DNA of 64,000 nucleotides, taken from contig CATOTF010000001.1 in NCBI GenBank assembly GCA_951813045.1, positions 1-64,000 of the forward strand, given 5' to 3'. This stretch comes from an uncultured Rhizobiaceae bacterium (GTDB lineage Bacteria > Pseudomonadota > Alphaproteobacteria > Rhizobiales > Rhizobiaceae). Within the stretch, counting starts at the first letter, position 1. Every line of letters starts with the position of its first letter. The position numbers were made by a program, and so were the translations under genes. Below, piece by piece: positions 15,100 to 63,257 of this stretch. The notes beneath the pieces are model-generated. The model was not told where the DNA came from, did no database searches, and was given only the letters and a program-made list of their open reading frames with translations.

Positions 15100-15212
15100 G
15101 ATATTGTTCTCTTTTCTTTTTGAAGATTTAGCGCATCGTTTAGTACAACTTCAGTGAGTGGGCAACCTGATATTTCTATACGCGACCAGGAAGATAAATT
15201 GTTGCTATTGGG

Positions 15213-15540
15213 GTGACTTTGGAACTCTTGAATGAGATCGGCAGAGTGTTCAACAAGTACCCGTTCTTTGGTAGCAAGCAGATAGCAGTCCATTTTGCCT
15301 CGCGAAGGGTTTTGTGTTGGCCACCATCGTGTCCAATACTAAATGCGACTCACAGGGCTGAAAACTTTCTACAAAGTACTCAACACCAGCAAGAAACATC
15401 CGAAGCATCCGGTGTACCCGTATTTGCTTCGAATGTTGCCAACCACTCAACCGTGCTGCTGCATTCATCATACAGATCGCGGCAGTCAAGGCGGATTCAA
15501 CCGGTCGTCCCAATGGTTGGATTATATCTTATATTAAAAG
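15213..15540 (+). pseudogene. IS3-family OrfB remnant with frameshifts and an internal deletion
   Basis: Successive frames give NKYPFFGSKQIAV, then NTSKKHPKHPVYPYLLR, then HHTDRGSQGGFNRSSQ. All are recognisable pieces of an IS3-family integrase core in the right order, but the catalytic middle between the second and third is missing. Nothing here could be functional. Confidence 0.7.
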
Positions 15541-15640
15541 TTCGTCCAATGCTTCAGCCGGTGTTTTCCAGCCGAGCGTTTTGCGGGGCCGTCTGTTTAG
15601 TGTGAACGCGAAGGCTTCCAACTCATCTGGCGCAACGCAT
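15529..15640 (-). pseudogene. IS30-family transposase, C-terminal fragment
   Basis: The minus strand reads DELEAFAFTLNRRPRKTLGW and on to KTPAEALDELL before a stop. LNxRPRKTLGxKTPAE is the hallmark tail of IS30-family transposases. No upstream part of the gene is present, as the metallophosphoesterase gene begins its 3' end at 15733. Confidence 0.8.
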
Positions 15641-15732
15641 GGCAAACCCGTGACCAAGTCACAGCGGACCTGTTCCAATACATCAACGGCTTCTACAACA
15701 GTCGTCGAAAACACTCAGCGATATGAGGAATA

Positions 15733-16941
15733 TCACCAATCAAGTTCGAACGAAAAACGAGTTAAACGAGAACAGGATGCGGAATTAATACGGGACAAGT
15801 CCACTTCCCCGTACCAACCGTGTGGGCTCCGGCCACGTTGCGGTTGCAACATTACCGTAAGCTTTTGGTTTTTGCCCGAGAGACCAAGCCAGAACGGCTC
15901 GTGTTGGCCATCGTCAGAGCTGGCGCTCAAAAGTGTTTGCCGTTGACCCGTTGATCTATTCGAAGTTGTACCGCTAATTCTCAATGCAGAAATTGTGGGT
16001 GTTAAATTTCCGGCCCCATGGACACCCACCAGAGGTGCTGATTGCGCGCCGTACGATAGCGTCATCCATTCACTGCTTGGCGGCAGATTTAAAGGCCATG
16101 AAAGACGCTCACGAATATCACCTTGAGTGTCCATGACTTGATACCGCATTCCATCACTGTCCAAAGCGACCTGAAGAGCGTGGAGGTATTCAATTCCTTC
16201 TGGCATTCTATGAGCTGTGCCAGCACCTGCTGTTGTTACCTGCAGAACACCATCGTGCACCTGTACATCGAAAGCGAGGATATGGCTACACAGGTAGGCG
16301 AAAACGCCTTGGTCTTTCAAAATGCTCCAGAAGGCATCTGCATATTCCGCGCCGATATTGCGGCCATAATTGCCAGCAAATCCATTGACTGTGAAAACAG
16401 GGTGATGACCAACAACAAATTTCCATTTGGCATCAGCATTGGCTCTTAGCGTGGCTTCTAACCATTCCGTTTCGAGATGGCCTTCCCCGCCGATTTTACT
16501 CCATAGCGTGTGAACAAAAACAAGGAGCAAGTCACCTTGGCGAACGAAATAGGATAGCCCTTCTTGTTCAGGCGCACCATTACGCGGCAGATAGGAAAGG
16601 ACTTCTCCAAAAACGCGCTCGCTCATCTGGCTATATGTCGTGTGATTGCCCGTGGAATTGTAAAGCGGAATGGCCTTCCTATCGAGCCATGCCATTTCGT
16701 GATTCAGCCAATAATCCCATTGCTTGCGCAATTCTGCTTCATCGTTTGTCAGGCCAATAATTTCATCACCCAGAAAAACGATAAATTCAGGCGCAGGGTT
16801 CAAACGTGCAATAACTGAATTGACAGCCGCATGGGTTTTCTCATGCGGTGCATCACGAACACCCGAACAGCTATCACCATATAGAACAAACTGGTGGCCA
16901 GAGCCGATTGGTAATAGGGCTGGTATCGCTTTTGCAGTCAT
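15733..16941 (-). CDS. Metallophosphoesterase with an extra C-terminal domain
   Basis: 402 residues. The calcineurin-like core is visible in order: YGDSCSG (first Asp), VFLGDEI, GNHTT, VGHHPVF and a later His in CSHILAF. It should hydrolyse a phosphate ester using two metal ions. Residues from about 290 on form a separate beta-rich region of unknown kind (FWLGLSGKNQKLTVMLQ). No signal peptide is clear. The protein stands alone between IS debris and an IS1111-type element, so its substrate cannot be inferred. Confidence 0.8.
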   Translation of the reverse strand: MTAKAIPALLPIGSGHQFVLYGDSCSGVRDAPHEKTHAAVNSVIARLNPAPEFIVFLGDEIIGLTNDEAELRKQWDYWLNHEMAWLDRKAIPLYNSTGNHTTYSQMSERVFGEVLSYLPRNGAPEQEGLSYFVRQGDLLLVFVHTLWSKIGGEGHLETEWLEATLRANADAKWKFVVGHHPVFTVNGFAGNYGRNIGAEYADAFWSILKDQGVFAYLCSHILAFDVQVHDGVLQVTTAGAGTAHRMPEGIEYLHALQVALDSDGMRYQVMDTQGDIRERLSWPLNLPPSSEWMTLSYGAQSAPLVGVHGAGNLTPTISALRISGTTSNRSTGQRQTLLSASSDDGQHEPFWLGLSGKNQKLTVMLQPQRGRSPHGWYGEVDLSRINSASCSRLTRFSFELDW

Positions 16942-17247
16942 TGCGTCTTCCTCAAACCATTGAAAAACAGCCTTGTTAACACGTAGCAGTCGAGAGAGCG
17001 ATGATTCTCAAAGTCGCATAATGAAATATATCGAACAACCATCTGTGAGTGACAGGGTTTTCTTGGTCACTTCATACGTACCCTGGCCATTCAGCACCGT
17101 AGAATCGGATCAGCGATGAATGGCAGCTTTGGTGAAATCTGTAGAGAAATTGAACTGCTGCTCCAACGGCCGCTAATGGGATGTACCGGCTGCTTCACCC
17201 AGCAGGTTAGATTTGTTCTATTTCACCTGCAGAAAAGGAGAAGTAGC

Positions 17248-18306
17248 ATGACTAAGAATGATTTTAATCACCAGATGTCCGTTGGCGTGGATATTGGCAA
17301 AGATACGTTCCACATTGTCGGTTTTGACAGTGACGGAAAGCTTGTTTTGCGCAAAAAGATCAAGCGGCTCGCATTGACCCAAACCTTCGAAAAATTGCCG
17401 CGTTGCATTGTTGGCATGGAAGCGTGCCTGAGTGCACATTTTGTCAGCCGAACTCTACGCAAGTTGGGTTTTGAACCCCGGATTATTCCAGCAATCTATG
17501 TGAAGCCATTCATCAAAGGGCAGAAGAATGACTTCAACGATGCTGAGGCAATTGCTGAAGCGGCGTTGCGCCCCAATCTGCCAACCGTTTCGGAGAAGAC
17601 CCAGGATCAACTTGATTTGCAGGCTTTGCATCGTGTCCGATCCCGGTTGGTCTCGCGCAGAACAGCGACGATCAATCAGATCCGTGCTTTTCTCATTGAA
17701 CAAGGGATCACGGTGCGCAGAGGTCTTCGGGCCTTGAACAATTCGTTCGATGCAATTCTGGAACAACGGCAAGAAGAGATATCTCCGCGTATGCGCAACA
17801 TTCTGCTTGGTCTTCGAAGTGATTGGTTCCAGCTTGATGAGCGTATTGAAGCGGTGTCGTCTGAGATTACGGAAATCAGCGAAACGGAAGAAAACTGCGC
17901 TCGCGTTATGACGATACCCGGCATTGGCCCGATGATCTCCACGGCTATGGTTGCTGCAATTGGAAACGGTGATGCATTTGATCGAGGACGTGACTTTGCT
18001 GCTTGGGTTGGCCTCGTTCCAAGACAATACAGCACAGGAGGGCGCACGATTCTTGGACGAATATCTAAGCGCGGCAGTCGTTACCTTCGTATGCTCTTGG
18101 TTCAGGCAGCAAAGGTCATTCTTATGCGACCGCACAATTGGCCCAAGTTCAGCTTTGGTGATTGGCTCAGCAAGGCTGCTGAACGGATGCATAAAAACAA
18201 ACTGGCTGTCGCATTGGCCAACAAGCTTGCCCGAATTGCTTGGAGTGTTTTGCGGAATGGCAAAGCATTCGATGTAGATAGAGATGAGGTGATGGTTGGC
18301 GTGTGA
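17248..18306 (+). CDS. IS110-family (IS1111 group) DEDD transposase, copy 1
   Basis: 352 residues from ATG 17248, preceded by AGGAG. The N-terminal RuvC-like DEDD domain shows Asp in GVDIGKDTFH, Glu in VGMEACLSAH and Asp pairs in KNDFNDAEAIAEAA. The C-terminal Tnp_20 domain shows PGIGPMIST and the catalytic-Ser region GRISKRGSRYLR. Enzymes of this family use a noncoding RNA from their own element to choose target and donor sites. The gene is complete and similar throughout to the copy at 61722-62780. Confidence 0.93.
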   Translation: MTKNDFNHQMSVGVDIGKDTFHIVGFDSDGKLVLRKKIKRLALTQTFEKLPRCIVGMEACLSAHFVSRTLRKLGFEPRIIPAIYVKPFIKGQKNDFNDAEAIAEAALRPNLPTVSEKTQDQLDLQALHRVRSRLVSRRTATINQIRAFLIEQGITVRRGLRALNNSFDAILEQRQEEISPRMRNILLGLRSDWFQLDERIEAVSSEITEISETEENCARVMTIPGIGPMISTAMVAAIGNGDAFDRGRDFAAWVGLVPRQYSTGGRTILGRISKRGSRYLRMLLVQAAKVILMRPHNWPKFSFGDWLSKAAERMHKNKLAVALANKLARIAWSVLRNGKAFDVDRDEVMVGV

Positions 18307-18525
18307 AGACCAGCCGTTGTCCAAAGGAGTTCGCGAAAGATAAAAAGCATGGAACGGAAAAATACGCCCCCAGAGTCTGACGGCCCTTTCGGTCATCATA
18401 GACCTTGCCGCTAATGAGGCCAAGGTGCGTGCGTAACCCCAATAAGGCCACGACCCGCGAGTCGATCAACAGGCCGGATACATATGAGCGACTTCCGAGA
18501 ACATGCAAAAAATCATTTGCGAACA
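18307..18525 (+). ncRNA. Putative seekRNA/bridge RNA of IS1111-type copy 1
   Basis: The 219 bases between the transposase stop and the right inverted repeat are conserved in copy 2, where they also lie 3' of the gene. Conserved blocks include GCATGGAACGGA, CAAGGCC/TAAGGCC with CACGAC, and CAGGCCGGATACAT. A variable stretch at 18407-18416 (GCCGCTAATG) is identical to the left flank at 17169-17178. CGGCCC at 18381-18386 is the complement of the right flank at 18545-18550. This is the arrangement expected for target-recognition loops. Transcription is inferred. Confidence 0.7.
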
Positions 18526-18830
18526 GCAGCCGGTACATACATGTGGGCCGATTTTTCGGATTTGCGCGATTGATTTTGGGATTGATTGGCTGCCCTGTCG
18601 CGCTCTATTCCGCTAAGCTCGTCCTTCGACAAGCTCCACCGAGCCAAACGGGTTTGTCTCGGCCAAGTCTGGTGACGATCACGGGCAGATGAGGTGAGGC
18701 GGACGTCTGCCAGCACCAGCAGCCGCTCCACCGCTTGTTTGCGCGTGAGGTCTCACGCTTGTCGAAACCTAGGGCCAGCTTATTTCAAAACCTGAAATTC
18801 GGCCATCATTTTACCCGTAAGAGTCACCAG

Positions 18831-61398: not shown

Positions 61399-61488
61399 CC
61401 GAAGTTGAGCAAAATTTGACGCATTTTTGGGCAAGGCGATTTCTGCAGCCCAAGGTCTGCACTGAGCCCACTTGTATGGACCGACTGC

Positions 61489-61721
61489 GGTTTGCAATAG
61501 AGAAATTCGAATGGATATCGGAAGTCGCTTCTATGTATCCGGCCTGTTTATCGACCCCATTTTATAGTCTGGGGTCGTGGCCTTGATGGGAATACGCACA
61601 CCTTTTGATCTCATTATTACCCGGGCCGTTTATGGCCAAGAGGGCTCTCAGATTCTGGGGCGCATATTAATCCGTTCCATGCATTTATCTCAGTTGCGAT
61701 CTATGAAGTGAAGTTGGCTTC
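61489..61721 (-). ncRNA. Putative seekRNA/bridge RNA of IS1111-type copy 2
   Basis: 233 bases between transposase stop and right inverted repeat, alignable with copy 1 over conserved blocks. The guide-like stretch GGTAATAATG (complement of 61612-61621) equals the left flank (complement of 62852-62861). CAAGAGGGCTC at 61637-61647 differs at one position from the complement of the right flank at 61464-61474. In both stretches the bases that differ from copy 1 track the flank. Transcription is inferred. Confidence 0.72.
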
Positions 61722-62780
61722 TTAAACGGCCTCCACTTCAATTCCATGGCTATCAAAGCTCTGTTTGTTTCTCAAAACACTCCAGGCTATGCGGGCCAGT
61801 TTGTTTGCAAGCGCGACAGCGACCTTGTTCCTGTGCATTCGTTTTGATGCCTCTTCCAACCATGGACCGAAGCTGAACTTTGGCCAGTTTTTCGGTCGCA
61901 TCATGATCACGTTGGCGGCCTGAACAAACAGCATTCGAAGATAGGTGGAGCCCCGTTTCGATATTCGCCCGAGTATGGTTTTGCCACCTGTGCTGTATTG
62001 CCGGGGGATCAACCCCAGCCAAGCGGCAAAATCTCTGCCTCTGTCAAATGCTTCACCGGTGCCCACAGCAGCCACCATGCTTGTCGAGATTATTGGCCCT
62101 ATGCCCGGGATGCTCATCAGGCGTCGGCAATTTTCTTCGCTTTGTGAGATGCTTTCAATCTCGGCTGTGGTGGTGTCGATACGCCCGTCCAACCAAATCC
62201 AGTCTTCATACAACCCGGTGATGATATCGCGCATACGTGGTGATATCTCGTCTTCACGGTTTTGCAGAATAGCGTGAAGAGAATCGTCTAAAGAATGCGC
62301 GCCGGTTCGAACCGTGATGCCTTGTTCGAGTAAAAATGCACGGATCTGATTAATGGTTGCAGTACGCTTCGATACCAGGCGCGACCGCACCCGATGCAGT
62401 GCCTGAAGGTCAAGTTGATCTTGTGTCTTCTCGCTTACGAAATTTAGATTAGGGCGAAGAGCGGCTTCGGCAATTGCCTCGGCATCATTGTAATCGTTCT
62501 TTTGTCCCTTGTTGAACGGCTTGACGAACTTTGCAGGAATAATGCGCGGTTCAAAACCAAGTTTGCGCAAAACCCGACTGACAAAGTGAGCACTCATGCA
62601 CGCTTCCATGCCAACAATGCAGCGTGGAAACTTCTCGAACGCCGAGATCAATGCCAACCGCTTGATCTTCTTGCGCAACACAAGCGTGCCGACATCATCA
62701 AAACCAACAAGGTGAAAAACGTCCTTGCCAATATCAACGCCAACAACAGTAAGCTGGGATAACTCGATATTCTTCGTCAT
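61722..62780 (-). CDS. IS110-family (IS1111 group) DEDD transposase, copy 2
   Basis: 352 residues from ATG 62780, preceded by AGGAGCAG. Same architecture as copy 1: RuvC-like DEDD domain (VVGVDIGKDVFHL, VGMEACMSAH, KNDYNDAEAIAEAA) and Tnp_20 domain (PGIGPIISTSM, GRISKRGSTYLRML). Complete frame. Many scattered substitutions separate it from copy 1, so the two are older relatives and not a recent duplication. Confidence 0.93.
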   Translation of the reverse strand: MTKNIELSQLTVVGVDIGKDVFHLVGFDDVGTLVLRKKIKRLALISAFEKFPRCIVGMEACMSAHFVSRVLRKLGFEPRIIPAKFVKPFNKGQKNDYNDAEAIAEAALRPNLNFVSEKTQDQLDLQALHRVRSRLVSKRTATINQIRAFLLEQGITVRTGAHSLDDSLHAILQNREDEISPRMRDIITGLYEDWIWLDGRIDTTTAEIESISQSEENCRRLMSIPGIGPIISTSMVAAVGTGEAFDRGRDFAAWLGLIPRQYSTGGKTILGRISKRGSTYLRMLFVQAANVIMMRPKNWPKFSFGPWLEEASKRMHRNKVAVALANKLARIAWSVLRNKQSFDSHGIEVEAV

Positions 62781-62861
62781 GGGATACTGCTCCTGTTTCA
62801 AAAGATCAGTCTAGCAGACCAACCAATTCCTGGGGTGCAGTCGGTCCATCCCATTATTACC

Positions 62862-63257
62862 AATTTCGACCATGTCGCAAACTGAACACTCAGATCACAA
62901 AGATTGGATTGGTACCGATACAAATAGAAACTGTGCAATGTTGAAAGAAATCTATTCTTATTATTTAAAGATCGGAATTCTGAAACCTGCCGCTCATATG
63001 GAAGCTCCGAATTGATCGGTGACGCTGCAAAGTTGGCATTAATCGATCAAGATTTATTCCACCACACAAGGCAAATTGAGTAATATGGGTGGTTATTCGA
63101 AATGCTTCGGTATTAAAATCTCCATTCCTTGTGATTTAGCACTATAGTTTTTACGAGCTTTACAATTACATCGAAGCGCACCGTTGGCAGTGAATCGCTC
63201 ACCGGCACCAGAAATCATAGATAGACTTACGTTCCAATCATTTAGGTAGATAGGTTT
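62862..63257. other. AT-rich gap, no gene seen
   Basis: No supported open frame or RNA gene. It lies between the second IS1111-type element and the 3' end of the molybdopterin reductase gene. Confidence 0.5.

Follow-up and report, generated by a model that had tools for sequence, protein, structure and literature searches.

The DNA analysed here, 64,000 nt from an uncultured Rhizobiaceae bacterium (GenBank assembly GCA_951813045.1, contig CATOTF010000001.1, positions 1 to 64,000 of the forward strand; 'the window' in the following), holds two insertion sequences (IS) of the IS1111 type: copy 2 on the minus strand, which we call element B, and copy 1 on the plus strand, which we call element A. 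Judged by its anatomy and its relatives, copy 2 is almost certainly an ordinary IS1111-type insertion sequence that chooses its insertion site by a small RNA, with the guides carried on that RNA. The initial annotation of the window had proposed that two guide stretches in the noncoding region of the element change together with the flanks of the insertion, and this was borne out in a wide comparison of relatives.

Copy 2 and its putative guides

Copy 2 spans 61473-62856 (1384 bp from TAATGGG to ACA, with ends read directly; all its features lie on the minus strand). Its transposase gene (61722-62780, 352 aa plus stop) matches the NCBIfam model NF033542, 'IS110 family RNA-guided transposase', over residues 12-340 of 352 (3.6e-98), and PF01548 and PF02371 both scored above cut-off when the longer frame 61722-62801 was scanned. 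The protein is related over its full length to the DEDD/IS110-type transposases that characterize the IS1111 family. The 13-bp subterminal inverted repeats (sTIRs), ATGGACCGACTGC on the left (62837-62849) and GCAGTCGGTCCAT on the right (61476-61488), pair at 13 of 13 positions. Outside of them are terminal extensions of 7 bp on the left (TAATGGG) and 3 bp on the right (ACA), and 249 bp of noncoding sequence lie between the stop codon of the transposase and the right end. We placed the IS ends by comparing copies and relatives; among the 82 relatives with both ends, TAATGGG was found in 76 and ACA in 78. Repeats of 11-13 bp, extensions of 7 and 3 bp, a long downstream noncoding region and a right guide 5' of the left guide are features of IS1111 elements, and copy 2 has all of them; the extension lengths are given by Siddiquee et al. 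(2024, PMC11187229).

The insertion is bordered by the left target flank GGTAA (62857-62861) and the right target flank AGTGGGCTC (61464-61472). Within the predicted noncoding RNA (seekRNA or bridge RNA, 61518-61679), the right guide GAGCCC (61642-61647) is complementary to the top-strand GGGCTC of the right flank, while the left guide GGGTAA (61617-61622) is identical to the left flank, read on its top strand, at 5 of 6 positions. The strings on which the initial annotation had built are present in the sequence: the complement of GGTAATAATG occurs in the noncoding region (61612-61621) and at the left flank (62852-62861), CAAGAGGGCTC (complement strand, 61637-61647) has its flank counterpart CAAGTGGGCTC at 61464-61474, and in copy 1 GCCGCTAATG stands in both places (17169-17178 and 18407-18416). 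However, only half of the 10-nt left match can be read as flank. GGTAATAATG consists of 5 nt of target, GGTAA, and 5 nt of the nearly invariant IS end, TAATG, and its counterpart in copy 1 is GCCGC followed by TAATG, so that only GGTAA versus GCCGC reflects the target.

Because half of the left match is this nearly invariant IS end, copy 2 by itself is weak evidence for a pairing of guide and flank, and chance is a possible explanation of what is seen there. The right target 9-mer is matched by the noncoding region at 8 of 9 positions, which 3.1% of 3000 random 9-mers from the window do as well, and the left 7-mer is matched at 5 of 7, where 33% of 3000 random 7-mers reach at least 6. The argument that two copies make coincidence unlikely is therefore not one we can uphold. 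Unlike copy 2 alone, the wider comparison excludes chance decisively.

Guides and flanks change together across relatives

For this comparison we took the best 80 of 181 relatives confirmed in one scan of the genome collection together with four copies from the own genome. Both ends were found by a fixed rule in 72 of these 84 loci, the other 12 being dropped, and the 72 sites hold 47 distinct guide pairs. On average, left guide and left flank agree at 4.47 of 6 positions (shuffled 3.24, maximum 3.79), and right guide and right flank at 5.75 of 6 (shuffled 4.34, maximum 4.72); in neither case did any of 2000 shuffles reach the observed value. The set was enlarged to 94 loci with 10 plasmid loci (10 of 51 plasmid records), which were added after the guides had been defined; both ends were found by rule in 82, and guides were extracted from the alignment. 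Among these 82 elements there are 11 different right-guide hexamers. The exact complement of the right guide lies at most 14 nt from the right end in 72 of the 82, compared to a mean of 23.8 and a maximum of 34 in 2000 shuffles. When the flank of each element was classified without knowledge of that element's guide, class and guide agreed in 76. For the later-fetched plasmids the predicted right hexamer was present in all nine loci with both ends (L172 is without a left end; L171 and L063 are one and the same insertion).

The guide positions also stood out when, in 58 distinct elements, the columns of the noncoding region were compared with those of the flanks and IS ends, with pairs of sTIR columns and the tail holding the right sTIR excluded as trivial. 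The pair of the right guide with position R12 of the right flank ranks first (79% complementary), and the pairs of the left guide with L-4 and L-5 of the left flank rank second (98% identical) and fourth. Rare right guides (reverse complements GTCCCA, GCCGCC, GTGCCA, CTCTGC, GGGCGC and CCGCCC) each occur with their own matching flank. Of the pairs that differ in the right guide, the closest is L045 (GGGCCG) with L072 (GGGCTG): their transposases are 94.5% identical, and each element has its own flank. In L053 and L065 a left guide of the GGGCCG class is combined with a right guide of the GGGCTC class. The right guide is strict and the left guide loose. The wide alignment was also checked for guide and flank varying independently of each other, and the correspondence was not refuted.

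A predicted two-arm RNA and its second loop

Folding 29 aligned noncoding regions with RNAalifold gave a closing stem and two arms with one internal loop each, and 9 pairs of this fold have changed on both sides (3.5 in shuffled alignments). Of the cells in the fold, 98.4% are paired, compared to 95.1% after shuffling and at most 37.8% after sliding, a figure that is favoured by the derivation of the fold from the same alignment. The number of further pair types is not unusual (19 against 17.5 shuffled; 79 of 500 shuffles as high). For single sequences, z was -2.89 for the 226-nt region, -1.12 for a 111-nt piece and -0.08 for a 121-nt piece, and Rfam gave no match at E up to 1 within 61400-62900. 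The two-arm structure with its compensatory changes looks like a bridge RNA.

Both target guides lie in loop 1 of this fold, the right one on the 5' side and the left one on the 3' side. Loop 2 contains CCCAT (61586-61590), complementary to ATGGG of the IS left end, and GGATACATA (61532-61540), which has ATACA in common with the right end CATACA; the two stretches follow the strand order of loop 1. This suggests that loop 2 reads the joined IS ends as a donor guide. Alternatively, loop 2 could be a structural or protein-binding arm only, with the IS ends recognized by the protein through the sTIRs. Such a role would fit the observation that an 82-nt short RNA sufficed for transposition of an ISEc11 mini-IS (PMC11187229), and it would fit the low variability of loop 2 across the aligned regions, which offers little covariation. 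It leaves aside the match of CCCAT and ATACA to both ends in the loop-1 order, and also the two elements ending in TAATGGA (L086 and L105), which both have UCCA instead of CCCA in loop 2; among the other 80 elements only L091 does (G-U compatible), with L040 counted as CCCA from the alignment. Potential donor-binding nucleotides have also been reported in IS1111 members (PMC11208160). We regard a purely structural loop 2 as less likely than donor reading but deserving serious consideration; the compensation in the donor loop is weak.

According to the mechanism we propose, the RNA encoded downstream of the transposase gene would be produced, bind the copy 2 transposase and guide it. Loop 1 would read the two target half-sites, between which the IS comes to sit, and loop 2 would probably read CATACA-TAATGGG, the junction of the IS ends, following the strand order of loop 1. 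When the ends were joined by script, a promoter-like TTGnnn-17-CATAAT appeared in 76 of 82 elements; such a promoter, if active, would transcribe both transposase and RNA. Copy 2 itself would be mobile. Changes of the guides in loop 1 would re-target the elements over evolutionary time.

Two improbable alternatives, and exceptions

Related elements might have inherited guide-like stretches and flanks without any functional pairing, or the matches might be due to chance. The matches of copy 2 themselves would allow this, as described above, and the guides do cluster on the transposase tree. Furthermore, several other pairs of noncoding-region and sTIR columns, for which no interaction is required, also score high in the column scan, and we read them as a probable contribution of shared ancestry. 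However, the branches of the transposase tree on which the guide changes are repeatedly those on which the flank changes too. Counted by parsimony on a single FastTree tree, built without support testing, there were 15 changes of the guide, 18 of the flank and 19 of both taken jointly, compared to a mean of 45.5 and a minimum of 39 joint changes in 500 shuffles of the flank labels over the tips. This refutes inheritance without pairing, and it is further opposed by the rare right guides with their own flanks and by the motif that insertions of one element have in common in different surroundings (see below), so that we consider it very improbable. Equally hard to credit is that the transposase protein reads the target and that the noncoding match is a remnant of flank captured by an earlier imprecise excision: TAATG does follow the left guide as it does at the real left junction, but the right guide repeats the flank as its reverse complement and stands 5' of the left guide, and therefore the two are not simply one captured junction, the guides lie in an internal loop of a structure maintained by compensatory changes, and the family mechanism has been published as RNA-guided (PMC11187229).

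Several observations weigh against the recognition of targets by these guides, in addition to the sTIR column pairs. The exact right hexamer is absent in 10 of the 82 elements. It is matched at only 4-5 of 6 positions in L042, L057, L061, L073, L089 and L090, it is shifted beyond the range by extra ACAT units in L059, and the right guides of L086 and L080 are without a match in the flank. In L104 (Roseobacter sp. H9) the right guide predicts GGGCTC and the occupied site is GGGCCG, that is, one of another class. The left guide agrees with its flank at only 4.47 of 6 positions, the first position agreeing in 34% of 79. The six elements missed by the blind class assignment are L059, L060 and L101, in which ACAT-like extra units push the seed beyond the scanned range, as well as L080, L086 and L104. 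The right flank of L080 runs into an inverted IS end (ATGTATGTACCGGCTGCC), so that two IS ends abut.

Between the IS end (ACA) and the right seed there are 3 nt in 51 of the 82 elements, 2 nt in 16 and 1, 4 or 6 nt in 5, with no seed found in 10, and this distance differs even among copies of one element (L078 and L079). At the right junctions of L059 and L060, additional ACAT units arranged in tandem separate the target from the IS end (CATACATACATACATTGGGC in L059); they are perhaps footprints of repeated insertion or excision.

L104 may have changed its guide after insertion. L045 and L049, whose transposases are about 92% identical to that of L104, carry the GGGCCG guide. Decay of L104 is possible as well, as one sTIR mismatch is present (12/13). 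We tentatively propose a joint reading in which re-targeting proceeds by few point changes and one guide at a time, the right guide being exchanged independently of the left, with L104 as a natural intermediate and loop 2 as a true donor guide that coevolves with the IS ends; we find this possible, and somewhat short of an even chance.

Empty target sites

We next turn to sites without an insertion. A pre-insertion site with long orthology on both sides was not found for the flank on the side of the gene that we take to be arfB (41 genomes), for L012 and L014 (15 genomes of the genus) or in seven plasmid flank searches; on the arfB side, the alignments to the best relatives stop at about query position 383-386 of 476. 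We also inspected six plasmid sequences that are homologous to occupied right flanks and uninterrupted: H61, H64, H65 and H67 (of 89 records), H44 (of 12) and H106 (of 31). Three of the uninterrupted sites have adjacent half-sites, namely L175 (GGCCGC-TTTGGGCCG) and L202 (GGCGGC-TCTGGGCCG) of the GGGCCG class and L177 (GCAGCATCTGTGAG-TCTGGGCTC) of the GGGCTC class, the last being related to the occupied site L164. These sequences are as expected if the IS enters between the left half-site and NNNGGGC. L176 (GACGGC-TTTGGACCG) fits only loosely, its left half-site being imperfect, and L173 and L174 (GCCCGATTAGGGCCG) are without a clear left half-site. These three sites, like the missing orthologous site, count against the proposed mode of insertion.

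The idea that the target is an abundant dispersed repeat was tried and rejected. Half-site pairs are not enriched in the own genome or in most of eight relatives, which also counts against the proposed reading: in the own genome, half-site pairs and the reversed-pattern control numbered 19 versus 34 and 0 versus 0. Among eight relatives the control was commoner in five (G041 15 versus 25, G043 23 versus 55, G045 14 versus 48, G046 23 versus 41, G048 14 versus 31) and the forward pattern in two (G044 18 versus 9, G047 12 versus 6), with a tie in G042 (6 versus 6). Several flanks hinted at a composite repeat, but a search of the own genome did not find one. In 7 of the 25 elements of the GGGCTC class (L070, L074, L078, L084, L101, L106 and L164), versus 0 of 57 others, GCAGCA precedes the left half-site by at most 24 nt, and it is also present at the empty site in L177. 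The GGGCTC class may favour a longer recurring target element.

Copy 1 and further copies in the genome

Copy 1 (17174-18541, 1368 bp; all its features on the plus strand) is an IS1111-type element of another species. Its transposase gene (17248-18306) matches NF033542 (1.3e-98), PF01548 and PF02371, and the protein is 75% identical to that of copy 2 (265 identities in 353-letter translations, stop counted; 73.6% when read from the multiple alignment). At the nucleotide level the two elements are about 70% identical, and judged by these values they are different IS species. The target flanks read at the junctions are GCCGC on the left (17169-17173) and TGTGGGCCG on the right (18542-18550); the right guide, assigned by guide-flank covariation, is CGGCCC (18381-18386) and the left guide, by agreement with its flank, is GCCGC (18407-18411). 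The inverted repeats of copy 1, ATGTACCGGCTGC and GCAGCCGGTACAT, pair at 13 of 13 positions. As the initial annotation had noted, the repeats of the two copies differ at two positions, each compensated at the other end.

The own genome (4.84 Mb in two contigs) contains eight PF01548 matches: three copies of element A (one cut at the 3' side), three of element B (one cut), a mosaic (L016) and one match, L015, that is too divergent for blastn. L010 and L014, the two complete B copies, are 97.5% identical. The left flank of element B is GGTAA in all three copies, and the right flank is AGTGGGCTC, identical over 9 nt, in both copies that retain the right end; GGTAA stands in different surroundings at L014 and L013. 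For element A, the left flanks are GCCGC, ACCGC and GCCGC and the right flanks TGTGGGCCG and AATGGGCCG, with AAGGGCCG at a 3' remnant. Flanks of the same element thus recur in differing surroundings, and therefore these are separate insertions into matching sites. Guides are identical between the two complete A copies and likewise between the two complete B copies.

It had been suggested that the targeting RNA is reprogrammed as copies diverge. This was not seen: L010 and L014 do not differ in their guides or in the target motif, and copies 1 and 2 are different species. Copies of one IS species retain the same guides, and re-targeting is visible only between different elements, not among the copies of one.

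Three of the further loci are incomplete. L011 (own genome C2, about 15108-16198) is a copy of element A that is cut ahead of its 3' end and runs into other sequence, with an open frame of 644 aa. L013 (C2, about 1790940-1791783) is a copy of element B cut within the transposase and followed by sequence that, judged by eye, is ABC-transporter ATPase-like. L016 (C2:4402000-4408000) is a remnant mosaic of short A- and B-like pieces in both orientations.

Relation to known systems

The RNA that reads the target and its natural reprogramming were both published in 2024, so that the advance made here is incremental. In IS1111 elements the RNA co-purifies with the transposase, is required for transposition and can be reprogrammed (in ISEc11, insertion was redirected by altering the RNA guides together with the donor flank), and a natural redirection between ISEc11 and ISXne4 has been described, as has a circle-junction promoter with which our joined-end sequence agrees (Siddiquee 2024, PMC11187229). 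Covariation of RNA with target and with donor was reported for IS110, bridge RNAs were predicted in 93.0% of IS1111 elements, and the bridge RNA was extended to IS1111 members by inspection of six elements, three per group, ISPa11 included (Durrant 2024, PMC11208160). A literature search found no title on this clade of IS1111 elements. New here are a large re-targeted alphaproteobacterial clade, the weak compensation in the donor loop and one element with a guide that has ceased to match the site it occupies.

The comparison provides support from sequence alone, by a test able to fail, for the reading of targets by IS1111 RNAs. It also provides a compact natural series of 11 right guides with about 15 switches by parsimony, which shows which guide positions matter and could help to choose positions for programmable insertion tools. 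If L104 is a true intermediate, it bears on how an element that needs agreement of guide and flank changes its guide without getting stuck.

Compared to the IS621 bridge RNA (PMC11208160), copy 2 is alike in having a predicted two-loop RNA with paired target guides and putative donor guides, analyzed by the same kind of covariation, but it differs in the place of the RNA, which lies in the right end, in its reversed strand order and in its 13-bp repeats. In the IS110 group proper, to which the IS621-like elements belong, the RNA lies in the left end, the target loop pairs with the bottom strand through its 5' side and the inverted repeat is very short, and copy 2 fits none of these. It is much closer to the seekRNA elements ISEc11, ISXne4, ISPa11 and ISKpn4 (PMC11187229), with which it shares the downstream noncoding region, sTIRs of 11-13 bp, extensions of 7 and 3 bp, a top-strand guide 5' of the bottom-strand guide, natural reprogramming and a circle-junction promoter, predicted here from the joined ends. 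It differs from them in its targets, and in that more natural re-targeting events, known from their sequences only, are seen here within one mainly alphaproteobacterial clade.
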